Source: Spirochaetales bacterium (GTDB lineage Bacteria; Spirochaetota; Spirochaetia; Sphaerochaetales; Sphaerochaetaceae). Taken from it: a stretch of DNA of 39,658 nucleotides. Below are positions 15,212-26,555 of the stretch, one piece after another. The translations under genes were made by a program, and so were the position numbers. The stretch covers positions 1-39,658 of the forward strand of contig JAGABZ010000012.1 of the NCBI GenBank assembly GCA_017614375.1, written 5' to 3'. Below the pieces are notes generated by a model, which ran no database searches, was not told the DNA's origin, and saw only the letters and a list, made by a program, of their open reading frames with translations. Position 1 is the stretch's first letter. Every line of letters begins with the position of its first letter.

Positions 15212-15239
15212 CCTTTAACAGGTTGGGTTGGTTAAGCAT

Positions 15240-15758
15240 ATGGAAATGAGAAGTGGCGATGAAGCCGCGTTCAGACAGGTCTACGAACAGGTTTTCCCTG
15301 TTGTAATGAGAGTGGCATTCCACGTCACCTACAACATGGATGTTTCGGAGGACATCTGCCAGGATGCATTCATCCGGTTCTTCGACAAGAACATGGTTTT
15401 CCAGACCATGGATGACGCGAAGTTCTGGCTGATAAGGGTCACGAAAAACCTGGCCATAAACCACGTGAAGCGGAAGGCCAGGGAAGCCGCCTCGATGGAG
15501 AAACTCAAACAGGTGACTCCGACGAGCAGCTACAAGGACGGTGCTTCGGAACTTCTCTTCCAGGAAACGACCGAGAACGTCAGAAAGGCGGTCTCGCAAC
15601 TTTCCGAGAAATACAAGACCGTCATAGTCTTGAAGGAGTATGCGGGACTTGACTACCAGCAGATAGGAAAGGTCCTGAACATTTCGGAGAGCAACGTGAA
15701 GGTCCGGGTGCACAGAGCGCGGAAGGAGCTCGAGGCACTGCTGGGAATGGAGAATTGA
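15240..15758 (+). CDS. RNA polymerase ECF-type sigma factor
   Basis: A 172-residue sigma-70 family protein of the extracytoplasmic function type. Region 2 is at residues about 8-80 (DISEDICQDAFIRFF-type core seen as SEDICQDAFIRFFDK, then FWLIRVTKNLAINHVKRK), and region 4 with its helix-turn-helix is near the end (YAGLDYQQIGKVLNISESNVKVRVHRARKELE). Regions 1.1 and 3 are absent, as expected. ATG 15240 is preferred; TTG 15228 is an alternative start. A five-base inverted repeat (AACCT/AGGTT, 15210-15224) lies at the cysS stop just upstream. The next gene encodes a ZAS-type anti-sigma factor, the usual partner, so its activity is probably controlled by release from the membrane. Confidence 0.9.
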   Translation: MEMRSGDEAAFRQVYEQVFPVVMRVAFHVTYNMDVSEDICQDAFIRFFDKNMVFQTMDDAKFWLIRVTKNLAINHVKRKAREAASMEKLKQVTPTSSYKDGASELLFQETTENVRKAVSQLSEKYKTVIVLKEYAGLDYQQIGKVLNISESNVKVRVHRARKELEALLGMEN

Positions 15759-15760
15759 CT

Positions 15761-16300
15761 ATGTGCTTGGACGACCAGATACTGAACACCTACTTGGACA
15801 ATGAGCTTGCCGAACCCTGGAAAAGCCAGGTCGAGGAGCATCTGAGTTACTGCAGCGCCTGCAAGGAGCGGTTTGAACAGCTCAAGGCCCTGAAGCAGAC
15901 CCTTCAGAGCGCGGCCCTCACTGATGAGGAGATCGCCCCCAGACAGGAAAACGTTCTGCGGATGATCAGCAACACCCGCTTCAACACCAAGAGAGCCTCC
16001 TTCCTCCGCCGGCAGTTCAAAATCAGCATTCCCGCCTTTGCCACCATCGCAGCCGCCTTTGTCTTTGTTTTCGTCGGTGCGATTCTCCACATCAACAACG
16101 GGAGCGGAAACGACTTCATACCCGCCGCCATGGACAGTGCCGTGGACGAGACCAACGTCAGTCTGGTTTCGGACGCCGGTCCGGCCAAGACAATCTACGA
16201 ATACAGCCCCAGCCTTGAGGAAGTCCTGGACTACCTCGACAGCCTGGGATACACGGTCAGCGTCACCAAGAAGGGTGTCGAGCCGTTCACTTTCGACTGA
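15761..16300 (+). CDS. Anti-sigma factor with zinc-binding (ZAS) domain
   Basis: A 179-residue single-pass membrane protein. The N-terminal cytoplasmic domain holds the zinc-binding anti-sigma motif HLSYCSAC (His-x3-Cys-x2-Cys, about residues 28-35), flanked by the amphipathic helix YLDNELAEPWKSQVEEHL. A hydrophobic segment near residues 88-112 (ISIPAFATIAAAFVFVFVGAI) crosses the inner membrane, leaving a periplasmic C-terminal part of about 65 residues that ends in a short acidic/aromatic segment. It should bind and silence the sigma factor encoded immediately upstream. ATG 15761 has GGAG at 15749-15752; TTG 15755, which overlaps the sigma stop, is a poorer start. The following lipoprotein gene is probably part of the same regulon. 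Confidence 0.88.
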   Translation: MCLDDQILNTYLDNELAEPWKSQVEEHLSYCSACKERFEQLKALKQTLQSAALTDEEIAPRQENVLRMISNTRFNTKRASFLRRQFKISIPAFATIAAAFVFVFVGAILHINNGSGNDFIPAAMDSAVDETNVSLVSDAGPAKTIYEYSPSLEEVLDYLDSLGYTVSVTKKGVEPFTFD

Positions 16301-16825: not shown

Positions 16826-16848
16826 AGCCGGGTTCGCCCGGCTTTTTT
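16826..16848. terminator. Terminator between the sigma operon and the LysR gene
   Basis: AGCCGGG and CCCGGCT form a perfect seven-base stem with a TTCG tetraloop, followed by TTTTTT. It ends the plus-strand sigma operon. It overlaps the stop codon of the convergent LysR gene; the minus strand has no U-tract after the stem, so it acts mainly on the plus strand. Confidence 0.9.
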
Positions 16849-17785
16849 ATTGCCTGAAGGATTCAAGATTTGAGAATGTGTCCCTGACCAGCCTAAGGTA
16901 CGCCGTCGTCGTGTGCGACAGGTAACTCCCGGTTTTGTACGCGGCGACGATCGAGTGTGTCGGCGCGGCATCCAGGAGCCTGAAAAAGACCGGACGGGGG
17001 GACTGGACGACGTAACGTGCCGCCATCTCCCCTATAAAGGTAAATCCCAGGCCGTTGGCCACCAGCTGCTGGGCAGTCGGCAGGTTGTTGACCTCAAGGG
17101 CGATGTTCTTTCCCAGTCCCTTTTCCCTGAAAAGCTTTTCCGTCGTCTCGCGCAGTTTATGACCCCCGCGGAGAATGATGAATGGTTCGTCCCTCAGCTT
17201 TGAGACGGGAATTCCCGGCAAGTCGGAAAAATCCTGGTTTCCCGGGTCTGTGCCTGCGCAAAGCGGATGGTCCGGAGGAGATGCAACCAATATCCGTTCA
17301 TCACAGATGGGGACGACGGTCAGAAGTGAGGTCGATTCGGGGCGGTTCATGATCGAGAGGTCTACCAACCCCTTTTCCGTGATTTCCAGGAGCCTTTCGG
17401 TGTTCTCCTCCACGACGGATAACTCGATGTTGGGATAACGCTTTCTGAATGCGGGAATCGTCTTTGACAGGATTATCTGCCCCCTGAAGTTCGGTACCCC
17501 GATTATCAGGCGTCCGCGTTCCAGATTCGAAATGTCTTCAAGCTTGGAAAGAAGATTCCTGTTCGTCTCCAGAATGCTTCGCGCGGCCTGTACGAACTGC
17601 TCTCCGGCGTAGGTCAATGAGATTGCGGACGTGGTCCTCCGGAAAAGAAGGACCCCCAGTTGTTTCTCGAGCCCCTTGATGCTCTGGCTCAGGGCGGGCT
17701 GGGTTATGTGAAGCCGCAGGCAGGCGTTCGTGAAGCTCAGTTCTTCCGCCAGCACCACAACATAGTTCATCTGCTCAAGTGTCAC
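16847..17785 (-). CDS. LysR family transcriptional regulator
   Basis: A 312-residue LysR-type regulator. The winged helix-turn-helix is at residues 1-65 (MTLEQMNYVVVLAEELSFTNAC...ITQPALSQSIKGLEKQLGVLLFRR), followed by the linker helix and a periplasmic-binding-protein-like effector domain (RGRLIIGVPNFRGQ..., then ILRGGHKLRETTEKLF). It starts with GTG at 17785 behind a strong AGGAGG. It is divergent from the aconitase-transporter operon with 131 bases between, the classic arrangement for a LysR activator of the neighbouring operon whose co-inducer is the operon's substrate or an intermediate, here probably a tricarboxylate or unsaturated acid. The intergenic palindrome at 17821-17839 is its probable binding site. 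Confidence 0.92.
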   Translation of the reverse strand: MTLEQMNYVVVLAEELSFTNACLRLHITQPALSQSIKGLEKQLGVLLFRRTTSAISLTYAGEQFVQAARSILETNRNLLSKLEDISNLERGRLIIGVPNFRGQIILSKTIPAFRKRYPNIELSVVEENTERLLEITEKGLVDLSIMNRPESTSLLTVVPICDERILVASPPDHPLCAGTDPGNQDFSDLPGIPVSKLRDEPFIILRGGHKLRETTEKLFREKGLGKNIALEVNNLPTAQQLVANGLGFTFIGEMAARYVVQSPRPVFFRLLDAAPTHSIVAAYKTGSYLSHTTTAYLRLVRDTFSNLESFRQ

Positions 17786-17820
17786 GTTCGTCCTCCTGAT
17801 AATGATTGTAAAGGACTAGC

Positions 17821-17839
17821 TTATAAGAATCAATTATAA
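17821..17839. promoter_or_regulatory. Palindromic site, probable LysR operator
   Basis: TTATAA, seven bases, TTATAA: a dyad containing the T-N11-A spacing favoured by LysR-type regulators (ATAA-N7-TTAT). It lies between the LysR start and the -35 of the divergent operon, the usual place of the recognition site. Confidence 0.5.
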
Positions 17840-17859
17840 AACCTATCCTAAAATCGAAT

Positions 17860-17888
17860 TTGACTCCTATAAATCGGGCCTGTAGAAT
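17860..17888 (+). promoter_or_regulatory. Sigma70 promoter of the aconitase-PrpF-Tct-AtuA operon
   Basis: TTGACT (17860-17865) and TAGAAT (17883-17888) are separated by exactly 17 bases. The -35 lies 20 bases downstream of the palindrome, so a LysR protein bound there could contact RNA polymerase. Confidence 0.6.
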
Positions 17889-17916
17889 CGATTTGTAAAC
17901 GTTACAGAGGACACTG

Positions 17917-19833
17917 ATGAACATCATTCAGAAGCTTATTTCAACACACCTTGTCGAAGGACAGATGATTCCCGGAAGCGAAATCGCCGTCAGAATCGAC
18001 CAGACCCTGACCCAGGACGCCACGGGAACGATGGCTTATCTTGAGTTCGAGGCCATGAACATTCCCAAGGTAAAGACCGAACTCTCCGTGAGTTATGTTG
18101 ACCACAACACAATCCAGATAGGTTTTGAGAATGCTGACGACCACCGGTTTCTAAAGACCGTGGCTGCCAAGCACGGCATCGTATATTCCCGCCCCGGAAA
18201 CGGAATCTGCCATCAGGTACATCTGGAGCGTTTCGGTGTCCCCGGCAAGTCCCTGCTCGGTTCGGACAGCCACACCCCGACCTGCGGCGGTCTGGGAATG
18301 CTCGCAATCGGAGCCGGCGGTCTGGATATTGCCATGGCCATGGCAGGCCGGCCGTTCAGACTGAACATGCCCAAGGTGGTAAAGGTGAATCTCACCGGCA
18401 GCCTACGGGGCTGGGTGTGTGCCAAGGACATCATCCTCGAACTGCTCAGACGCCTCAGCGTCAAGGGCGGTGTGGGCAAGGCCTTTGAGTTCTCCGGCCC
18501 GGGTGTTGCCACCCTGTCCGTGCCTCAGAGAGCCACAATCACCAACATGGGCGCCGAGCTCGGTGCTACTACCTCGGTGTTTCCCAGCGACGAACAGACC
18601 CGGCTCTTTCTCAGGGCCCAGGGAAGGGAGGCGGATTACCGCCCGCTGAGCGCCGATGCCGACGCGCAGTATGACGAAGTAATCGACATCGACCTTAGCG
18701 CCCTCAATCCCGAGGTTGCCAAACCGCACCAGCCCGACCAGGTTGTTGAGGTGGAGCAGCTCAAAGGTATGAAAATCGACCAGGTATTCATAGGTTCCTG
18801 CACCAATTCCTCCTATGTGGACATGGTAAGGGTCGCGAAGATCCTCAAAGGCCATCTGGTCCATCCGGACGTCAGCCTCTCGATCGCGCCCGGTTCAAGG
18901 CAGGTTTTCGAGATGCTCGCCGCCGAGGGGTATCTGGCCGACATGATCAGCGCCGGAGCCAGAATCCTCGAGTGCGCCTGCGGACCCTGCGCCGGAAGCG
19001 GACAGGCTCCCTCGACCGGAGCCAAGTCCCTCAGGACTTCCAACCGGAACTTCCTCGGCAGGTGCGGAACGCTTGATTCCGAAGTATATCTTGCCGGCGC
19101 GGAAACCTGCGCCGCTTCCGCCATCGCCGGTTATCTGACCGACGCCGAACAGTACGCCTGCGTGCTGGACATCGAGATGCCGTCTGCCTTCCGTGTGGAC
19201 GACAGGATGATCATCACCCCGCCGGCTGATTCCTCCGATGTGACGGTTCTCAAGGGGCCGAACATCAAGTCCCTGCCCGAATTCAACGAGCTGGAGGACA
19301 GTTTCTCCGCCCCGGTTGTTATCAAGACCGGCGACAACATCAGCACCGACCACATCATCCCCGCCGGGGCAAAGGTCATCCCGCTGAGGTCGAATGTTCC
19401 CGAAATCTCAAAGTACCTGTTCTCCCGCGTCGACCCGACCTTCTATGACAGGCTCAAGGCTGCCGGAAGCGGAATCATCGTAGGCGGAGAGAACTACGGA
19501 CAGGGATCGAGCCGTGAACATGCCGCGCTGGCCCCGAAGTACATGGGTATAAAGGCGGTCCTCGTTCTTTCCTTCGCCAGAATCCACATGCAGAATCTGG
19601 TGAACTTCGGTGTCCTGCCGCTGCTGTTCGACTCGAAGGAGGACTATGAAAAGGTCAGACAGGACGATGTCCTGAGCCTGTCTGGTGTCAGAAGCGGAGT
19701 GAAGAACGGCTCCCTGACGGTAAATGACGAGACACAGGGCTTCAGTTTCACGGTGCATATGGCACTTTCCGAAAGACAGAAGCAGACAATACTTACCGGC
19801 GGACTGCTCAACGCCATGGAGGACAGGAAATGA
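17917..19833 (+). CDS. Aconitase-family hydratase
   Basis: A 638-residue iron-sulfur hydro-lyase of the aconitase superfamily, swivel domain at the C-terminus. The three cluster cysteines are present: Cys295 in IGSCTNSS, Cys355 and Cys358 in CACGPCAGSG. The substrate-binding GSDSHTPTCGG is near residues 110-120, and the active-site serine stretch QGSSREHAAL is at about 529-538. The length is that of the short bacterial aconitase type (about 640) rather than the 890-residue AcnA or AcnB. Citrate/isocitrate is the default substrate; 2-methylcitrate-type, homoaconitate-type or other 3-carboxylates are possible because it is coupled to a PrpF-type isomerase and a Tct transporter rather than to TCA-cycle genes. 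AGAGGA precedes the ATG by five bases; the next gene overlaps by ATGA. Confidence 0.9.
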   Translation: MNIIQKLISTHLVEGQMIPGSEIAVRIDQTLTQDATGTMAYLEFEAMNIPKVKTELSVSYVDHNTIQIGFENADDHRFLKTVAAKHGIVYSRPGNGICHQVHLERFGVPGKSLLGSDSHTPTCGGLGMLAIGAGGLDIAMAMAGRPFRLNMPKVVKVNLTGSLRGWVCAKDIILELLRRLSVKGGVGKAFEFSGPGVATLSVPQRATITNMGAELGATTSVFPSDEQTRLFLRAQGREADYRPLSADADAQYDEVIDIDLSALNPEVAKPHQPDQVVEVEQLKGMKIDQVFIGSCTNSSYVDMVRVAKILKGHLVHPDVSLSIAPGSRQVFEMLAAEGYLADMISAGARILECACGPCAGSGQAPSTGAKSLRTSNRNFLGRCGTLDSEVYLAGAETCAASAIAGYLTDAEQYACVLDIEMPSAFRVDDRMIITPPADSSDVTVLKGPNIKSLPEFNELEDSFSAPVVIKTGDNISTDHIIPAGAKVIPLRSNVPEISKYLFSRVDPTFYDRLKAAGSGIIVGGENYGQGSSREHAALAPKYMGIKAVLVLSFARIHMQNLVNFGVLPLLFDSKEDYEKVRQDDVLSLSGVRSGVKNGSLTVNDETQGFSFTVHMALSERQKQTILTGGLLNAMEDRK

Positions 19834-20984
19834 TTGAGATTCCCTGCACGATAATGAGAGGCGGAACCAGCAAGGGGCTGTTCTTTCTCGATTCCGATCT
19901 GCCCCGGGACAGGGAGGAGCGATACAGACTGATATCGAGGGCCTTCGGCAGCCCCGACCCTTCCGGACTTCAGATCAACGGTCTGGGCGGGACGTTGGCC
20001 AACATGAACAAACTGGCCATCATCAGCAAGCGCGAAGGTGAAAAGAACGCCGTCAACTACGATTTCGGCCAGATTGATATCTACAGCTGGATAATCGACA
20101 CAAAGGCCAACTGCGGAAACATTTCCTCCGCCGTCGGCCCGTTTGCCATCGACCACGGACTGGTTGATGAAATCACCGAGCCGATTACCCAGGTGATGAT
20201 TTACAACACGAACACCAAGAAGTTCATCCGCGCAAATGTCCCGGTAAAGGACGGAAAGACCCTCTACGAGGGAGACTTCAGAATCGCCGGGATCAACAGA
20301 CCTGGCGCCCGGATCCAGCTCGACTTCCTTGAGCCGGGCGGAGCCACCACCGGAAAGCTTCTGCCGACGGGTAACGTAATCGACAGGGTCAGGACGGTCC
20401 ATTACGGAGAGTTCGACATCTCCTGTGTCGATGCGACGAATCCGTTCGTTTTCGCCCGTGCCGGGGACCTCGGTCTGAAGGGCAACGAGTCGCCGAAGGA
20501 AATCGAGGCCATCCCCGGAATGCTGGACAAGATGCTCGAAATCCGCGAGGCCGCCGCCGTCCTGCTCGGGTTCGCCTCCACCCTGGAAGAGGCCCACAAC
20601 AAGGTCAAGGCAGTGCCCAAGTTCTGTATGGTCGCCCCTGCCCAGGATTATGTGAGCGTAGCGGACGAAAAAGTGGCCCGTGACGATGTCGATCTGCTCG
20701 TCCGGATGCTGTCGATGGGCAAGGCCTTGCCCTCCCTCGCCATCACCGGGGCAATCTGCATCGGCGTCGCGGCTAAGATCAAGGGATGTCTGGTCAACGA
20801 GGCTGCCGACCCCAGGAAGGCGGATTGTGAGCAGGTTCGTATCGGCCAGCCGGGAGGAATGCTCCCGGTGAGTGTCAAAGTGGAGCAGCTTCAGGACGGC
20901 TCGTTCCACGCGATTCAGGGATCGGTATTCCGGACAGCCAGAAGAATGATGTCCGGAACAGCGTATATACCGGAAAACGATTGA
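19830..20984 (+). CDS. PrpF-family isomerase/tautomerase
   Basis: A 384-residue protein of the PrpF family (diaminopimelate-epimerase-like fold), whose known members are 2-methylaconitate cis-trans isomerase and 4-oxalomesaconate tautomerase. The N-terminal CTIMRGGTSKGLFF, the GLGGTLANMNKLAI segment with Lys61 at the position of the active-site lysine, and NCGN with Cys95 match the family. It would move a double bond or interconvert cis and trans isomers of an aconitate-like acid. Shewanella PrpF has been shown to bind trans-aconitate, and the neighbouring hydratase needs a cis-aconitate-type substrate, so trans- to cis-aconitate isomerisation is a sensible hypothesis. It overlaps the hydratase stop by ATGA. 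Cytoplasmic. Confidence 0.88.
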   Translation: MIEIPCTIMRGGTSKGLFFLDSDLPRDREERYRLISRAFGSPDPSGLQINGLGGTLANMNKLAIISKREGEKNAVNYDFGQIDIYSWIIDTKANCGNISSAVGPFAIDHGLVDEITEPITQVMIYNTNTKKFIRANVPVKDGKTLYEGDFRIAGINRPGARIQLDFLEPGGATTGKLLPTGNVIDRVRTVHYGEFDISCVDATNPFVFARAGDLGLKGNESPKEIEAIPGMLDKMLEIREAAAVLLGFASTLEEAHNKVKAVPKFCMVAPAQDYVSVADEKVARDDVDLLVRMLSMGKALPSLAITGAICIGVAAKIKGCLVNEAADPRKADCEQVRIGQPGGMLPVSVKVEQLQDGSFHAIQGSVFRTARRMMSGTAYIPEND

Positions 20985-21010
20985 CGTCAGTCAATAAAAG
21001 GAGATTCAGA

Positions 21011-21994
21011 ATGAAAAAACTGGAAAAAGCACTTTTGATCGTGCTGGTTGTGTGTCTGGCGGTTTGTCTCGTCAGCTGCAAGAAGAAGACGGAGACCTAT
21101 CCGAACAGAGCAATCGAACTGGTCATTCCGTTCAGCGAAGGCGGAGCCAGCGACATCACCGCACGTCAGTTCGCTGTTGCTCTTGAGAAGGAACTCGGAG
21201 TTTCGATTACCTGTGTCAACAAGTCGAGCGGCGGCACCGTCGAGGGTCTTGAGTATGCATATGCCCAGGGCAACGACGGATACACCCTTTTCTGGCTGAC
21301 CAACTCGGTACCGATGAAGCAGGCCCAGAACGCCACGAAGGTCAAGTTCACCGAGTCCTTCGAGCCCCTGTTCCAGGTCTGTGCCGACCTGACCATCATC
21401 ATGGTCAAGTCCGACTCCCAGTTTAAGACCATGCAGGAACTGGTTGCCTACGCAAAGCAGCATCCGGGCGAACTGCTGATTGCCGGAACCTCTCCGGGAG
21501 GATTTGACGACTACCAGGTTACCAACGTCTGCGAAGAACTCGGAATCGAGCTGACCTATGTCCCGTATTCCGGCGGTTCCGCCGTCAAGGCCGCTGTTCT
21601 CGGAAACGAAGTCGACATCTATCAGGACAAGATCGCTTCCTGTCTGTCGCTGATCCAGTCCGGCGATGTCCGCCCGCTGGCCGTTATCGCAAAGGAACCG
21701 GTTGATTCCGTTCCCGAACTCAAGGGAGTCCCGACCCTCAGACAGCTCGGTGCCGACTTTGACGTAGGTCCGTGGAGAGGTCTGTCGGTTCGCAACGACG
21801 TCGACGCCTCCATCCTCGCCAGACTCAAGGAAGCCTGCCAGAAGGCCTATGACAGCGCCGAGTTCCAGGAATATCTGCAGAAGAACTATCTGAACATCAA
21901 CAAGATCATTCCGCAGAAAGACCTGAAGGAAAGCATCATCGCCGAGACCGCGTCCTATGTGCCGTTCTACGAGTCCAGAGGACTGATCAAGTAA
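21011..21994 (+). CDS. tctC: Tripartite tricarboxylate transporter substrate-binding protein (TctC/Bug family)
   Basis: A 327-residue periplasmic binding protein made as a lipoprotein (lipobox LVSC, Cys23). The Bug/TctC hallmarks are YPNRAIELVIPFSEGGASDITAR at the mature N-terminus, NKSSGGTVEGLEYAYAQGNDGYTL, and YVPYSGGSAVKAAVLGNEVDIYQD. Known TctC-type proteins bind citrate or related carboxylates and dicarboxylates; the ligand here is probably the substrate of the adjacent isomerase and hydratase. The real start is ATG 21011, with AGGAG at 20999-21003; an upstream frame from 20981 is rejected. TctB and TctA follow at once, making a complete transporter. Confidence 0.92.
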   Translation: MKKLEKALLIVLVVCLAVCLVSCKKKTETYPNRAIELVIPFSEGGASDITARQFAVALEKELGVSITCVNKSSGGTVEGLEYAYAQGNDGYTLFWLTNSVPMKQAQNATKVKFTESFEPLFQVCADLTIIMVKSDSQFKTMQELVAYAKQHPGELLIAGTSPGGFDDYQVTNVCEELGIELTYVPYSGGSAVKAAVLGNEVDIYQDKIASCLSLIQSGDVRPLAVIAKEPVDSVPELKGVPTLRQLGADFDVGPWRGLSVRNDVDASILARLKEACQKAYDSAEFQEYLQKNYLNINKIIPQKDLKESIIAETASYVPFYESRGLIK

Positions 21995-22004
21995 ATTAGC
22001 TGCC

Positions 22005-22514
22005 ATGGCTGTTTTTGAACTGATATTTGACTTTTGTCTTGAAGTTCTTTTGATCCTCTTGTACGGGATGTCCTACGGTTTCAACGTAGGACAGCCCACA
22101 AGGGGTGACATCCTCGGGGCCACCGGGTTCCCGAGGATCGTCATAGTAATCGCTTTCGTCCTGATTGCGTATCAGATTGTCGTTCTGCTGCTCAAGATGA
22201 GACGGGAGAAGAAGAACGCCCAGGAGAACACCGCCGCGGATGAATCCCACAAAGGCGGATATCTCAGGTTGCTGGCCTGCATCGCGCTGCTGATTGCCTA
22301 TGTGTTCCTGATGAACTACATCGGCTACGCTTTCGCGACGATGCTCTTCGTTTTCGCGTTCGGAAAAACCATCGGGTACAGGAACAATCTCAAGCTGCTG
22401 ATCTTTACGGCAGCCATCACGATAATCCTCGTCCTGGTGTTCGGAACAGTTTTCTCGATAACCCTTCCGAGAGGAAAGTGGTTCTTCAGGGAACTGAGTT
22501 TCTATTGGTATTGA
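22005..22514 (+). CDS. tctB: Tripartite tricarboxylate transporter small membrane subunit (TctB)
   Basis: A 169-residue integral membrane protein with about four hydrophobic helices (residues about 5-25, 45-65, 90-112, 120-150) and a polar cytoplasmic loop in the middle (KMRREKKNAQEN). The pattern and genetic position, between the binding protein and the large TctA subunit, identify TctB. It has no catalytic role but is needed for transporter assembly. ATG 22005 lacks a good ribosome binding site, so translation is probably coupled to tctC, which ends ten bases before. Confidence 0.85.
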   Translation: MAVFELIFDFCLEVLLILLYGMSYGFNVGQPTRGDILGATGFPRIVIVIAFVLIAYQIVVLLLKMRREKKNAQENTAADESHKGGYLRLLACIALLIAYVFLMNYIGYAFATMLFVFAFGKTIGYRNNLKLLIFTAAITIILVLVFGTVFSITLPRGKWFFRELSFYWY

Positions 22515-22524
22515 GGAGGATAAC

Positions 22525-24024
22525 GTGGACTTTTTCCTTTCTTTGTTATCCCAGGTTTTCACGCCGCTGAATCTGCTGCTTGTCGTGGCCGGTTCCGCAT
22601 GGGGACTGGTTGCCGGTTCGCTTCCGGGAGTCAGTTCGTCGATGGCGGTTATCCTGCTTCTTCCCTTTACCTACAGGCTGGGAATCATGCCCTCAATCGT
22701 CATGATGATTGCGGTCTACGTCGGCGGCAGTGCCGGCGGAAGCGTTTCGGCAATCCTGATGAAGACCCCGGGCACCCCCGAAGCTGTTGCGACTACATTC
22801 GACGGTTATCCGCTTGCCATGCAGGGAAAGAGCGGCGAAGCTCTGGGGCTGGCAATCACCGCCTCGTCGTTCGGCTCGATCTTTTCCGGAATCTGCATGA
22901 TGATATTCGCTCCGGTGCTCTCGGCGGCTGCCCTGAAGTTCCAGAGCGGAGAGTATTTTGCCCTGGCTCTGCTGGGCCTGAGTTGCGTAAGCTCAATCGG
23001 TTCCAAGCATCAGGGAAAGGCGATAATCTCGGCCCTGCTCGGGCTGCTGGTCGCCTGTGTCGGAATCGACCCGATTACCGGTGTCGAGAGATGGACCTTC
23101 AACCAGAGTGCTCTGGTCAGCGGCGTCGAGTACATCCCGGTCATCATCGGTTCGTTCGCCCTGGCGGAACTGTTCACCAGAATCCGCAGGTTCAACCCCG
23201 AGGCCACCTCCGCCGAGGCGACCAAAGTCTCGCTCAAGCTGCTTAAGTTCAAGGAGCTGTTCAAGATGTGGTTCACCTTCGTCAGAAGTGCCGTCATCGG
23301 AACGGTCATCGGAATCATGCCCGCTGCGGGTGGAACTATCGCCTCGCTCGTCGGCTACGGTGCCGCGGTCAAGTCGGACAAGAACCCCGAACGCTTCGGA
23401 ACCGGAGCTTACGAGGGAATCATTGCCCCGGAGGCCTCAAACAACGCCGCCGTAGGCGGAAGCATGGTCCCGACGCTGACTCTGGGCATCCCCGGAAGCG
23501 CCACTTCGGCCGTCATCATGACCGTCCTGACGATTCAGGGCCTGACACCCGGACCGCTTCTCATCAGGAACCAGCCTGAACTCCTGTACGGAATCTTCAT
23601 TTCGATAGTCCTGGCATCTCTGCTGCTGTTCATCGTGGGAAGATTCATCACCAAACAGTTCGCCCGTGTTCTGAAACTGCCGTATCCTCTGCTGGCAACC
23701 ACTATTTCCCTGCTGGGAGTGGTCGGTGCCTTTGCGCTGCGCGGAAGCATCTTCGATTTGAAGGTTATGCTGGTCTTCGGAGTCGTGGGCTATCTGTTCA
23801 ACCTGTTCGGCTATTCGTCGCCGGCATTCGTCCTGGCCCTGATTCTGGGCAAGCTGGCGGAAACCGGTCTGAGACAGCAGACTGTCATCGGTCACGGAAG
23901 CTTCGCCGGCCTGTTCACCCGCCCGGTTTCCTGCGTGATCATCATCGTGGCGGTTCTGGTCTTCGTGTCTCCGTTCATCAAGCCGATGCTTCAGAAACTG
24001 AAAAAGAGAGGTGAAAATGCTTAA
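22525..24024 (+). CDS. tctA: Tripartite tricarboxylate transporter permease (TctA)
   Basis: A 499-residue polytopic inner-membrane protein of the TctA family, with roughly eleven or twelve hydrophobic helices. The conserved motifs GSLPGVSSSMAVILLLPFTY, GGSAGGSVSAILMKTPGTPEAVATTFDGYP and, in the second half, APEASNNAAVGGSMVPTLTLGIPGS are present. It forms the ion-coupled channel that takes substrate from the TctC protein. It starts with GTG 22525 behind a strong GAGGAGGA. Length is normal and no truncation is seen. Its last bases overlap the start of the AtuA-family gene. Confidence 0.94.
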   Translation: MDFFLSLLSQVFTPLNLLLVVAGSAWGLVAGSLPGVSSSMAVILLLPFTYRLGIMPSIVMMIAVYVGGSAGGSVSAILMKTPGTPEAVATTFDGYPLAMQGKSGEALGLAITASSFGSIFSGICMMIFAPVLSAAALKFQSGEYFALALLGLSCVSSIGSKHQGKAIISALLGLLVACVGIDPITGVERWTFNQSALVSGVEYIPVIIGSFALAELFTRIRRFNPEATSAEATKVSLKLLKFKELFKMWFTFVRSAVIGTVIGIMPAAGGTIASLVGYGAAVKSDKNPERFGTGAYEGIIAPEASNNAAVGGSMVPTLTLGIPGSATSAVIMTVLTIQGLTPGPLLIRNQPELLYGIFISIVLASLLLFIVGRFITKQFARVLKLPYPLLATTISLLGVVGAFALRGSIFDLKVMLVFGVVGYLFNLFGYSSPAFVLALILGKLAETGLRQQTVIGHGSFAGLFTRPVSCVIIIVAVLVFVSPFIKPMLQKLKKRGENA

Positions 24025-25369
24025 ATGCAAGATTTTTGTTCCCTACGGAGCGGTCGGACTTGACTGCTCCGAGGAGGCCTTCGCCGCCGGTCTGGCGATG
24101 AAGCCTGATATCATTTCCAGCGACGCGGGCTCTACCGATTCCGGCCCCTACTATCTGGGATCCGGCAACGGAAAATACGCCACCACCGCCGTCAAGAGAG
24201 ATCTCAAGAGGATGATCCTCGGTGCCGATTCCCTCGGAATCCCGATGACGATCGGAAGCGCAGGGACATGCGGCTCGAATTTCGGTGTCGATGAGGCTGC
24301 CAGAATCTGTGAGGAAATCTGCCGGGAGAACGGCCTTCACAAGAAGATTGCCAAAATCTACGCCCAACAGGACCGTGAGCTGATTAAGAGAAAGTACCGC
24401 GAGGGAAAGGTTCACGCCCTGGAGGGAGCTCCCGAGATTTCGGAGAAGACCTTTGATGAATGCAGCACCATCGTTGCCCTTTCCGGCGCGGAGCCGTTCC
24501 AGAAGGCTCTCAGGGAAGGAGCCGATATCGTCATCTGCGGAAGAGCCACCGATACCGCGGTGATTGCGGCATATCCCCTGATGAAGGGCTGTGACGAGGC
24601 TTCGTGCTGGCACGCGGCAAAGGTCGCCGAATGCGGAGGCCTGTGCACCAGCGCCGGACTGTCCGGCTGTGCCTTTATCGAAATCGACGAGAAGGGATTC
24701 AATGTCCGTTCGGTCATGCCCGGAAGCACAGTTTCCGAGTATTCCGTGGCTGCCCACCTGCTTTACGAAAACGCCGACCCGGTATATCTGAAGGAGCCGG
24801 GAGTGTGCATCGATACGACTTCCTCGAAGTACACCGCCGTTTCGCCCACGAACGTCAGGGTTGAGGGGACCAAGGTCACCCACATGCCCTACACGATGAA
24901 GCTCGAAGGTGCCGGTCCGGTCGGTTTCCAGACAATCAGTATCGTCGGAATCAGGGACCGCAAGATCATGAAGGATCCGATGGCATGGGTCAACGCCGTC
25001 AGGCAGCAGGGAATCGCCAAGCTTGATAAGACGGGGATTCTGTCGGAGACTTACAGCCTTAACTTCAAGGTGTTCGGTTACAACGCCGTTTCCGGCATGC
25101 CGGTTCCCGAGGGTTACGTTCCCAACGAGATCGGAGTTGTGCTCACCGTCACCGCCGACACCCAGGCTCTGGCCACACAGGTCGCCAAGGCGTTCAACCC
25201 GCTTCTGCTGCACCTGAATATCTTCCCGGAGAGGCAGATGCCGTCGTTTGCGTTCATCTCTTCCCCCGCCGAAATCGAGAAGGGCAGCATCTATGAGTTC
25301 AAACTCTACCACGTCGTCTCGATCGATGATCCTTTGGAACTGGTGAAGATCAGTTTCACGGAAGTATGA
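24017..25369 (+). CDS. AtuA-family protein (acyclic terpene utilisation, DUF1446)
   Basis: A 450-residue cytoplasmic protein of the AtuA family (PF07287). Recognised from the N-terminal YGAVGLDCSEEAFAAGLAMKPDIISSDAGSTDSGP, the MTIGSAGTCGSN stretch, VICGRATDTAVIAAYPL and the conserved Cys/His-rich SCWHAAKVAECGGLCT. In Pseudomonas, atuA belongs to the citronellol/geranyl-CoA cluster, but its reaction is unknown, and relatives occur in many clusters without terpenes. Pseudomonas AtuA is longer; here the C-terminal DUF4387 part is a separate gene directly downstream. ATG 24017 with AGAGG five bases upstream is preferred to GTG 24011; either overlaps the tctA end. Its place after a Tct transporter and aconitase/PrpF pair suggests a step on a branched or tricarboxylic acid. 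Confidence 0.88.
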   Translation: MLKCKIFVPYGAVGLDCSEEAFAAGLAMKPDIISSDAGSTDSGPYYLGSGNGKYATTAVKRDLKRMILGADSLGIPMTIGSAGTCGSNFGVDEAARICEEICRENGLHKKIAKIYAQQDRELIKRKYREGKVHALEGAPEISEKTFDECSTIVALSGAEPFQKALREGADIVICGRATDTAVIAAYPLMKGCDEASCWHAAKVAECGGLCTSAGLSGCAFIEIDEKGFNVRSVMPGSTVSEYSVAAHLLYENADPVYLKEPGVCIDTTSSKYTAVSPTNVRVEGTKVTHMPYTMKLEGAGPVGFQTISIVGIRDRKIMKDPMAWVNAVRQQGIAKLDKTGILSETYSLNFKVFGYNAVSGMPVPEGYVPNEIGVVLTVTADTQALATQVAKAFNPLLLHLNIFPERQMPSFAFISSPAEIEKGSIYEFKLYHVVSIDDPLELVKISFTEV

Positions 25370-25379
25370 GGAGGAAACC

Positions 25380-25688
25380 ATGAGCAAAACCATCGAACAG
25401 ACGGTAAGGGCAATAAGAAGCAAGAACGCCGGTCCCTTCTGGGTGACGATCGATGCCTTCTGCGACAACGCTGAAGACACCGCGCTGGTCTCCGCCTCGT
25501 TCACCCGCAACAAGGCGCTGATTGCCAAGATTTTCAACGTCCGGGAGAGCCTGGTCAAGATTTTCACCCTGACCCACATCCACGTGGTTAAGGTCAGCGT
25601 TCCGAGAATCCCGATTGAAGGCGCCCGCGACGAAAAGGACATGCACGGCGGCCAACAGTATGTCTCGCTTCTGGATCTTGAGGTATAA
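25380..25688 (+). CDS. DUF4387 family protein
   Basis: A 102-residue protein of the DUF4387 family, recognised by the conserved IRSKNAGPFWVTIDAFCDN and the ending VSVPRIPIEGARDEKDMHGGQQYVSLLDLEV. DUF4387 is often the C-terminal domain of AtuA proteins or a small gene beside them, so it most likely forms a complex with the preceding gene product. Activity unknown. AGGAGG lies five bases before the ATG. The single Cys, an Asp-rich segment and the HGG near residue 90 are candidates for a binding site. Confidence 0.88.
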   Translation: MSKTIEQTVRAIRSKNAGPFWVTIDAFCDNAEDTALVSASFTRNKALIAKIFNVRESLVKIFTLTHIHVVKVSVPRIPIEGARDEKDMHGGQQYVSLLDLEV

Positions 25689-25691
25689 CCC

Positions 25692-26489
25692 ATGAAACTA
25701 ATTCAGATTGTGTTGAACCCGGCGGAATCGAAGAAACTGATTTCCGATGCCCTTTTCAGGATGGGGTGTGTCCAGAAGGCCTTCAAAAAAGGTATTCTGG
25801 CCATCCATCCGAGCAGCACCGTGTACTTTCTCTATGAGCATCTGACCGGGAGCCTGCCTTCCGAGGGCTGGATTTTCGGAATGGTCTCCAAAGACGGCCT
25901 GTGCCGCTCGAAGTACGTCGCCCAGTCCCTCGATACCGGCAAGCCCGCAAGGAAGCTCTGGGTGTTCAGAGAGGGCGTTCTGTCGGACCCCGTGCCGCTT
26001 GACGCGGTGCTTCAGGAGATGGGCCCCGGCGATGTATTCATCAAGGGGTGCAACGCAATCGACTCCTACGGCAATGCCGCGGTTCTTTCCAGTTCCCCGG
26101 ACAAGGGCGGAACAACCGGCAAGATTATCCGCGCCAAGGCTGAGAGGGGCTTTAAGTTCATCGTTCCTGCCGGAGCTGAAAAGAGCATTCCCGGCAGGCT
26201 TTCCGAGGTCTATGATTTCTGCGGCAAGGACAAAGCTGATGCCGGCGGAGGACTTGCCTGCGGGGTCTTTCCGGTGACCGGAGGTCTGGTCGTGTCCGAA
26301 ACGGACGCCATCAGAGTCCTTTTCGGAGCCGATGCAGTGGTCGGAGCCGGCGGAGGTGTATCCGGAGCTGAAGGTTCCGTCATCGTCTTCGTCAGGGCCG
26401 AGGAAGAAAAATGCGGCGAAATCCTCGATTATTTCGCCTCAATCAAGGGCGTTGAAATCCCGTATGCCGAGTATGTGACATACAACTGA
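25692..26489 (+). CDS. Protein of unknown function, last gene of the AtuA operon
   Basis: I do not recognise this 265-residue protein. It has no signal peptide or membrane helix. The N-terminal half shows LISDALFRMGCVQKAFKKGILAIHPSSTVYFLYEHL, a helix-strand pattern like the ISOCOT fold (CoA transferases, MtnA/eIF2B, LUD proteins). The middle holds MGPGDVFIKGCNAIDSYGNAAVL, which resembles the substrate loop of MtnA-type isomerases. The C-terminal part is glycine-rich (DAGGGLACGVFPVTGG, AVVGAGGGVSGAEGSV), perhaps a nucleotide- or CoA-binding region. This assignment is only a resemblance by eye. The ATG is three bases after the DUF4387 stop, so it is clearly part of the operon and probably supplies an enzymatic or accessory step to AtuA/DUF4387. 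Confidence 0.8.
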   Translation: MKLIQIVLNPAESKKLISDALFRMGCVQKAFKKGILAIHPSSTVYFLYEHLTGSLPSEGWIFGMVSKDGLCRSKYVAQSLDTGKPARKLWVFREGVLSDPVPLDAVLQEMGPGDVFIKGCNAIDSYGNAAVLSSSPDKGGTTGKIIRAKAERGFKFIVPAGAEKSIPGRLSEVYDFCGKDKADAGGGLACGVFPVTGGLVVSETDAIRVLFGADAVVGAGGGVSGAEGSVIVFVRAEEEKCGEILDYFASIKGVEIPYAEYVTYN

Positions 26490-26521
26490 TCCGCCCTGAT
26501 TCACAAGGACTCCTTTTCTTG

Positions 26522-26555
26522 CGGGAGGGACTGCTGAGGTCCCTCCCGGTTTTTT
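26522..26555 (+). terminator. Rho-independent terminator of the aconitase-AtuA operon
   Basis: Nine-base arms CGGGAGGGA and TCCCTCCCG around a nine-base loop, followed by GTTTTTT. It separates the catabolic operon from valS. Confidence 0.92.

Follow-up and report, generated by a model that had tools for sequence, protein, structure and literature searches.

Which acid is served by a LysR-controlled operon that couples a complete carboxylate uptake system to an aconitase and a PrpF-like isomerase, and what do the AtuA and DUF4387 proteins encoded in the same operon contribute to its use? The question is raised by a stretch of 39,658 nucleotides from a Spirochaetales bacterium (contig JAGABZ010000012.1; hereafter the window), which carries eight co-directional genes coding for an aconitase, a PrpF-superfamily isomerase, the TctC, TctB and TctA components of a tripartite tricarboxylate transporter (Tct), an AtuA-family protein, a DUF4387 protein and a protein of 265 amino acids (aa). 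A preliminary description of this DNA held that AtuA has no known reaction, that no lyase is present, and that AtuA, DUF4387 and the 265-aa protein perform an undescribed step. We observed instead that AtuA and DUF4387 are homologous to the two subunits of a structurally solved protein deposited as citramalate lyase, which supplies both a known reaction for the family and a lyase candidate within the operon. Based on this match and on the methylaspartate-pathway context of related genes, this step is in all likelihood a C-C cleavage of known type, on a substrate that may be new. We propose, at what we consider even chances, that the operon serves to import and ferment a tricarboxylate, with trans-aconitate, degraded via citrate, as the most likely one; that the AtuA/DUF4387 pair serves in it as a replacement of citrate lyase is a component of this reading to which we assign an equal measure of belief and doubt.

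Sequence searches matched AtuA to 9erq_A, deposited as citramalate lyase subunit A (E 1.3e-79; 35.0% identity over 434 columns), and DUF4387 to 9erq_B, deposited as subunit B (E 6.7e-11), such that both chains of PDB entries 9erq and 9evf (CmlAB) are matched by the pair. An AlphaFold model of AtuA (predicted local distance difference test, pLDDT, 84.2; predicted template modelling score, pTM, 0.82) aligns with 9evf_A over 443 residues with Z 47 and a root-mean-square deviation (rmsd) of 3.2. Among the matches listed, 9evf is the sole one with E <= 0.001; no clear second fold relative was recovered, nearly all other listed rows covering about 100 C-terminal residues. The title of this entry, 'Citramalate lyase - ADP - pyruvate complex', names ADP and pyruvate as ligands of the solved relative, and an adenine nucleotide may hence participate in the lyase reaction. 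Our AtuA alignment of 49 rows has 44 columns with a conservation of at least 95%; the window protein agrees in 43 of them and differs at D18, which suggests that it is catalytically intact. The papers listed by searches of the open-licence literature include none on the solved citramalate lyase, and passages of an itaconate-degradation paper (PMC12290011) leave AtuA, CmlA and DUF1446 unmentioned. Viral contigs yielded no AtuA relative.

We then examined the genomic contexts of AtuA in the phylum, using 31 loci outside the window, with neighbors within 8 kb assigned by phmmer comparison to a limited set of reference proteins; several of these lie on short contigs, and their neighbors may be cut off. 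Within the family of the window, 22 genomes carry AtuA, and wide neighborhoods cover all of them but G493, G497, G500 and G503. Glutamate mutase and/or methylaspartate ammonia-lyase genes lie within 8 kb at 10 of the 31 loci; in one of the genomes (G167) the pair follows genes for class I fumarase subunits, a glutamate symporter, glutamate mutase and methylaspartate ammonia-lyase. The chain from the PDB sits in this methylaspartate-linked part of the AtuA tree, where it groups with proteins of Salmonella (94% identity) and Escherichia coli (92%). Citramalate lyase is the missing step of the methylaspartate-pathway operons that hold these AtuA relatives; its reaction converts (S)-citramalate to pyruvate and acetate (PMC4682846). 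Family searches of the nine genes of the window locus found no glutamate mutase, no methylaspartate ammonia-lyase and no other member of the atu set for terpene degradation.

The best indication that the AtuA/DUF4387 pair acts as the lyase of the window operon comes, by analogy, from a PrpF-containing operon of another member of the same class. PrpF occurs in 13 of 394 genomes of the class, the window genome included, and eight of the others (all but G506, G492, G509 and G510) were examined. In G212, a LysR gene stands divergent to the genes PrpF-CitD-CitE-CitF-PRK11413 hydratase-CitMHS family transporter, with CitD scoring 121.5 (cut-off 63.5), CitE 448.7 (443.4) and CitF 716.3 (501.45). A classical citrate lyase thus occupies the place held by AtuA/DUF4387 in the window operon. 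A like exchange is seen in glutamate-fermentation clusters, with AtuA/DUF4387 in two of our loci (L036 and L053) and CitDEF-like lyases in clostridia (PMC4682846).

The aconitase points to the size of the acid being processed. It scores 958.7 bits against NF005558, above the cut-off of 612, and retains the cysteine motifs (C295, C355 and C358), which we take to be the iron-sulfur ligands, as well as the SSREH motif. Arg491 of its PLRSN motif aligns with Arg580 of pig aconitase and also with the Arg of the homoaconitase small-subunit loop, a position that presumably binds the third carboxylate; in the alignment, isopropylmalate/citramalate isomerase has no Arg there. Its closest homologue seen, from Monoglobus (61% identity), adjoins a gene annotated as an isocitrate/isopropylmalate family dehydrogenase. 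Taken together, these features favor a C6 tricarboxylate over a C5 acid as the probable substrate of the hydratase. The enzyme falls far below the cut-off for AcnD (TIGR02333; 170.3 bits against 1419.85). The PrpF protein is covered over its full length by PF04303 and has Lys and Cys at the positions of K73 and C107 in the Shewanella enzyme, residues for which catalytic roles have been described (PMC5690661). TarA and TbrA, both proven aconitate isomerases, belong to this superfamily (PMC11495376). A PrpF tree, which contained no TarA or TbrA sequence, placed the window protein with no known substrate.

We propose that the chemistry probably consists of isomerization, hydration and cleavage, with AtuA/DUF4387 performing the cleavage. 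The LysR protein would sense the acid and TctCBA would import it; PrpF would convert trans-aconitate to cis-aconitate, which the aconitase would hydrate to citrate. AtuA/DUF4387, as a CmlAB-type two-subunit lyase, would then split citrate into acetate and oxaloacetate instead of CitDEF, and oxaloacetate-decarboxylase-type enzymes encoded elsewhere would convert the oxaloacetate to pyruvate and CO2. The substrate and direction of every step, like the acceptance of citrate by AtuA/DUF4387, are what we infer; citrate carries a carboxymethyl group in place of the methyl group of citramalate. Our best reading agrees with the earlier view in that a tricarboxylate is imported, PrpF isomerizes it and the aconitase carries out the hydration; trans-aconitate is the best candidate for this acid, and cis-aconitate and citrate are possible further substrates.

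The gene content of the window genome (1.54 Mb, 98.39% complete) is compatible with such a route. It encodes an OadA-type biotin protein and two OAD-beta proteins, which would offer the oxaloacetate released by citrate cleavage a way onward. No citric-acid cycle is in sight in the gene content: there was no match for citrate synthase (controls positive in 13 of 14 genomes) or for isocitrate/isopropylmalate dehydrogenase (14 of 14), and the only aconitase-family gene is that of the window; isocitrate lyase was not searched for. CitF likewise gave no match, in a search whose controls were positive in only 3 of 14 and above cut-off in 1.

The shared promoter region offers a further parallel. The palindrome TTATAA occurs at 17821-17826 and 17834-17839, both within the 131-base divergent region, out of seven occurrences in the whole window against 1.98 expected; Markov sequences modelled on the divergent region contain two or more within 131 bases in 0.8% of cases. 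The same hexamer is the motif bound by TarR, which is the LysR-type regulator for trans-aconitate in Bacillus velezensis; trans-aconitate catabolism in that species combines a LysR gene in divergent orientation, an aconitate isomerase of the PrpF superfamily, an importer and TTATAA operators (PMC11495376).

The conserved linkage of the AtuA, DUF4387 and 265-aa genes to those for aconitase, PrpF and Tct, which the preliminary description proposed to look for, is seen in part: sub-modules of the operon recur in a few relatives, but the complete eight-gene set was seen in no other genome examined, and the 265-aa gene adjoins AtuA in the window only. AtuA/DUF4387 with Tct and an aconitase-family hydratase recurs at three of the 31 loci, all from the same family as the window. 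The closest AtuA/DUF4387 pair (G226) stands beside two PRK11413-like hydratases and Tct. In G425 (L088) and G421 (L089) one operon reads PRK11413-like hydratase-AtuA-DUF4387-TctC-TctB-TctA-2-hydroxyacid dehydrogenase-HpcH aldolase, with the neighbors labelled by similarity and TctB by size and place. In a further relative (G301, L085:9240-11137), AtuA breaks off after about residue 385, the following 2-hydroxyacid dehydrogenase is shortened and DUF4387 was not found, such that the locus looks decayed. PrpF, Tct and aconitase occur together in two further genomes, in the order 2-hydroxyacid dehydrogenase-PrpF-TctB-TctA-TctC-RraA-like-aconitase in G358 (L138:8161-16181) and, partly by eye, in G319 (L140:10105-18064). 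The G358 operon adjoins a gene for a PrpR_N/sigma-54 activator, and a similar-looking open reading frame (ORF) is present in G319. Elsewhere in the class, distant PrpF versions (33%) stand beside RraA-looking proteins, as judged by eye (G426, G511 and G554), and two PrpF regions (G586 and G601) are cut by contig ends. On plasmid pILYOP01 of Ilyobacter polytropus (L109:6214-14235), genes for an aldolase/citrate-lyase-family protein, an aconitase, a 2-hydroxyacid dehydrogenase and a 2-hydroxycarboxylate transporter stand divergent to those for PrpF and an isocitrate/isopropylmalate family dehydrogenase.

Plasmid records gave 111 with AtuA, of which 14 regions were examined (two without annotation); at seven of these, TctC or more of the transporter is annotated, and six of the seven, with L057 as the exception, hold an AtuA of the set that is sister to the window clade. 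There were also 48 plasmid records with aconitase and 331 with PrpF, and three regions were examined for each. In Hydrogenophaga, PrpF occurs with a tricarballylate dehydrogenase, an aconitase-superfamily dehydratase pair and TctC.

Several observations weigh against a pathway ending in citrate cleavage by AtuA/DUF4387. In the AtuA tree (49 rows; a quick method with Shimodaira-Hasegawa-like approximate likelihood ratio test, SH-aLRT, values only and no bootstrap), the window protein forms its own clade with those of G226 (70% identity) and G301 (73% over 386 columns), with support of 100. This clade joins proteobacterial and actinobacterial versions of unknown substrate (SH-aLRT 96-97) and is separated from the PDB chain by a branch with SH-aLRT 96. 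By this tree, the window AtuA is a homologue and no orthologue of CmlA, belonging to a separate subfamily; filing the pair as citramalate lyase by name was therefore rejected. Three Arg residues (R239, R307 and R393 in 9erq numbering) that are conserved in the CmlA/methylaspartate-linked rows and most others are S, Q and N in the window protein, and none of the sister rows has Arg at these positions; consequently, the pocket may differ from that of CmlA, in either direction. The family is functionally broad, as its pairs also stand with ABC transporter, ADP-ribosylglycohydrolase-like and PfkB genes, and the substrate of its uncharacterized branches is uncertain. In G458 (L096:9718-18932), for instance, the pair has a third type of context: downstream of AtuA and DUF4387 lie genes for an ABC transporter, for two proteins resembling ADP-ribosylglycohydrolases and for a PfkB kinase, and gene sizes are similar in L092-L095 and L097 (families were scanned in L096 only).

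The contexts of the partner genes raise comparable reservations. The operons of G226, G425 and G421 also carry an HpcH aldolase and a 2-hydroxyacid dehydrogenase, neither of which would be needed for citrate cleavage alone; such relatives of the window operon have a more complex make-up, and the acids that they process may be different ones. The examined stretch of the PrpF-Tct-aconitase operons of G358 and G319 holds no AtuA, such that this module need not end in citrate cleavage. The PrpF protein falls below the prpF cut-off (TIGR02334; 297.7 bits against 440.55) and also below that of oxalomesaconate tautomerase, which identifies it no further than as an isomerase of the superfamily; among solved structures, it matches a 3-methylitaconate isomerase best. 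The clostridial CitDEF-like lyases may themselves be citramalate lyases (PMC4682846). As CitDEF-type enzymes have been assigned to both substrates, the exchange seen in G212 cannot separate citrate from citramalate. The OadA and OAD-beta families also include other biotin-dependent decarboxylases. Finally, TTATAA is absent from the examined promoter regions of G212, G226 and Ilyobacter and occurs once in that of G301; consequently, the likeness to the tar system is only suggestive.

These reservations are best read alongside the alternatives that they favor. That AtuA/DUF4387 is no lyase, catalyzing another reaction on a 2-hydroxy or 2-oxo acid while the aconitase/PrpF products are used by an enzyme encoded elsewhere, is in our view unlikely. 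The varied contexts of the pair (ABC transporters with ADP-ribosylglycohydrolase-like proteins, hydantoinase-like proteins, aldehyde dehydrogenases, MmgE/PrpD) and the AtuA-free PrpF-Tct-aconitase module of G358 and G319 would fit it. On the other side, the family-conserved columns are kept, the AtuA model shares the fold of the solved lyase subunit along 443 residues, and of the enzymes that might take up the products, citrate synthase, isocitrate dehydrogenase and CitF were not found in the searches described above, which did not include isocitrate lyase. A C5 route, in which imported itaconate or citraconate is converted by an itaconate/citraconate-type PrpF isomerase and the hydratase to citramalate, and AtuA/DUF4387 as a true citramalate lyase releases acetate and pyruvate, appears to us quite unlikely. 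A coenzyme A (CoA)-free path from itaconate would need just these three enzymes, and the solved relatives of the pair and of PrpF, a citramalate lyase and a 3-methylitaconate isomerase, agree with it. It has to contend with a high-scoring aconitate hydratase that keeps the third-carboxylate Arg, with the position of AtuA outside the CmlA part of the tree and the replacement of the Arg residues conserved there, and with Tct and the CitMHS-linked sister operon of G212, which point to tricarboxylates.

The isomerase match could also speak for branched tricarboxylates or dimethyl acids, whether 2-methylcitrate and 2-methylaconitate or the methylitaconate-dimethylmaleate route, which belongs to nicotinate fermentation, with AtuA/DUF4387 cleaving the hydrated product. 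We regard this as improbable, although PrpF proper works with AcnD in the 2-methylcitrate cycle (PMC5690661): the window aconitase is far from AcnD, PrpF lies under the prpF cut-off, and no citrate-synthase family gene was found in the window genome. Methylcitrate synthase belongs to that family. The parallel of LysR, PrpF and importer with the tar system would also allow trans-aconitate to be fed as cis-aconitate into the citric-acid cycle as in Bacillus, leaving AtuA/DUF4387 an unrelated passenger; we give this next to no credence and rejected it, as citrate synthase, an isocitrate dehydrogenase family gene and a second aconitase were not found in a genome of the completeness given above.

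The layout of the locus bears out one uninterrupted LysR-controlled operon, as originally described: the genes lie where they had been placed, Pfam profile searches returned the families named for them, and spacing and a terminator-like site agree (Table 1). The eight co-directional genes are separated by -4, -4, 10, 10, -14, 10 and 3 bases, the LysR gene lies 131 bases from the aconitase gene, and valS begins 135 bases past the 265-aa gene, the last of the operon. G+C at third codon positions (GC3) is 0.68-0.75 in the eight ORFs, as expected for coding DNA here. Terminator-like sites are not in excess in the region (9 against 9.6 in shuffles), but the other eight have only 5 to 8 pairs against the 11 at the operon end. 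The promoter-like site at 17860-17888 has 10 of 12 matches; this match alone is weak, since shuffles give 3.3 such sites against 5 in the region. On these features the eight genes read as a single transcription unit rather than a chance array. All three transporter components are present, making up a complete tripartite tricarboxylate transporter. For TctC, the inner ATG at 21011, which precedes a lipoprotein-like signal, is a more probable start than the listed TTG. Upstream of the LysR gene (15228-16300) are a gene for an extracytoplasmic function (ECF)-type sigma factor and, immediately following it, a zf-HC2 (anti-sigma-like) gene.

Table 1. Features of the operon and its flanks, in window coordinates
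Feature	Coordinates	Strand	Evidence
LysR-type regulator, divergent	16847..17785	-	PF03466 E 5.2e-39, PF00126 E 3.3e-19
Intergenic region, two TTATAA palindromes and promoter-like site	17786..17916		
Aconitate hydratase, PRK07229 type, 638 aa	17917..19833	+	NF005558 958.7 bits
PrpF-superfamily isomerase, 384 aa	19830..20984	+	PF04303 E 5e-112
TctC, solute receptor	20981..21994	+	PF03401 E 1.3e-30
TctB, small membrane subunit	22005..22514	+	PF07331 E 2.4e-18
TctA, large membrane subunit	22525..24024	+	PF01970 E 1.7e-137
AtuA-family, CmlA-like, proposed large subunit of C-C lyase	24011..25369	+	PF07287 E 9.9e-32
DUF4387 protein, CmlB-like, proposed small subunit	25380..25688	+	PF14330 E 7.1e-23
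265-aa protein, predicted RpiA/eIF2B-like fold	25692..26489	+	structure model only
Terminator-like site, operon end	26522..26548	+	11-pair stem, 8 G-C, then GTTTTTT

The 265-aa protein has no sequence match in Pfam, NCBIfam or the PDB. Its model (pLDDT 81.9, pTM 0.86) finds RpiA (7lda) as best Foldseek match with E 9.3e-4, and the best Z is 8.8 over 157 aligned residues with rmsd 4.2 (eIF2B, 6caj_E), scores that are middling. The 50 listed fold matches comprise eIF2B, methylthioribose-phosphate, ribose-bisphosphate and ribose-5-phosphate isomerases or entries with related titles; eIF2B and these sugar-phosphate isomerases form one superfamily. We describe the predicted fold as RpiA/eIF2B-like and assign the protein no role. 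Members of its family are present in 10 of the 392 phylum genomes, including that of the window, and further relatives are found in one planctomycete and one poribacterium; no relative was found on plasmids. No AtuA stands beside these relatives in the wide regions of seven of the nine other genomes (all but G057 and G074), in G446 and on two contigs; the relative in G044 lies on a contig of 3.2 kb, and that in G328 (L042:7950-10473) between DUF1177 and AroM genes. A place as conserved third subunit of the lyase was rejected given this distribution and the lack of a match for it in G226, which has AtuA at 70% identity and DUF4387. We also set aside a CoA-transferase role, the listed fold matches being RpiA, eIF2B and related isomerases, although the absence of CoA transferases from these lists proves nothing. 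The superfamily of that fold includes CoA transferases and CitF.

Beyond the single operon, AtuA and DUF4387 proteins are found across several phyla with the labels 'acyclic terpene utilisation' and 'unknown function', behind which an enzyme is concealed; its chemistry is indicated by the solved citramalate lyase. We posit, tentatively and at somewhat less than even chances, that their subfamily in the window is a second, unrelated class of citrate lyase, two-subunit, possibly nucleotide-using and free of the acyl-carrier machinery of CitDEF, which would let an organism without a citric-acid cycle live on trans-aconitate or citrate with an operon of about 9 kb, the Tct-linked pairs of proteobacteria being related hydroxyacid lyases with other substrates. 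The operon offers a direct test of whether the citramalate lyase machinery also cleaves citrate; if it does, a textbook enzyme complex would have been replaced independently, with meaning for the Tct-linked AtuA/DUF4387 pairs of soil bacteria.

Among known systems, CmlAB (9erq, 9evf) shares with the window pair the AtuA/DUF1446 and DUF4387 subunits encoded by adjacent genes, the predicted fold and the family-conserved columns. It differs by its 35% identity, separate clade and the three Arg residues replaced in the window, and the window operon lacks methylaspartate-pathway genes and has citrate as its predicted substrate. The G212 operon has the same parts (LysR, PrpF, aconitase-family hydratase, carboxylate transporter and lyase), with a classical citrate lyase and a PRK11413 hydratase where the window has AtuA/DUF4387 and a PRK07229 aconitase. 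The tar system of B. velezensis resembles the window in its divergent LysR gene, PrpF-superfamily isomerase, dedicated importer and TTATAA in the shared promoter region, but there the importer is encoded by one gene and the product drains into the citric-acid cycle (PMC11495376), whereas the window has Tct, its own aconitase and a candidate lyase, with citrate synthase and isocitrate dehydrogenase not found in its genome. A metabolic counterpart is Acidaminococcus fermentans, which is described as fermenting trans-aconitate via citrate, oxaloacetate and pyruvate (PMC3035267, citing Haertel and Buckel 1996), the same sequence as that proposed for the window operon, from aconitate to citrate, from this to acetate and oxaloacetate, and on to pyruvate. 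Its genome carries, at different sites, CitDEF, isocitrate dehydrogenases and several genes for aconitase-like proteins and transporters (PMC3035267), whereas the window has one operon with AtuA/DUF4387 and Tct. On the reading proposed here, the window operon would follow a known fermentation route whose decisive step is taken over by another kind of lyase, one solved only recently.

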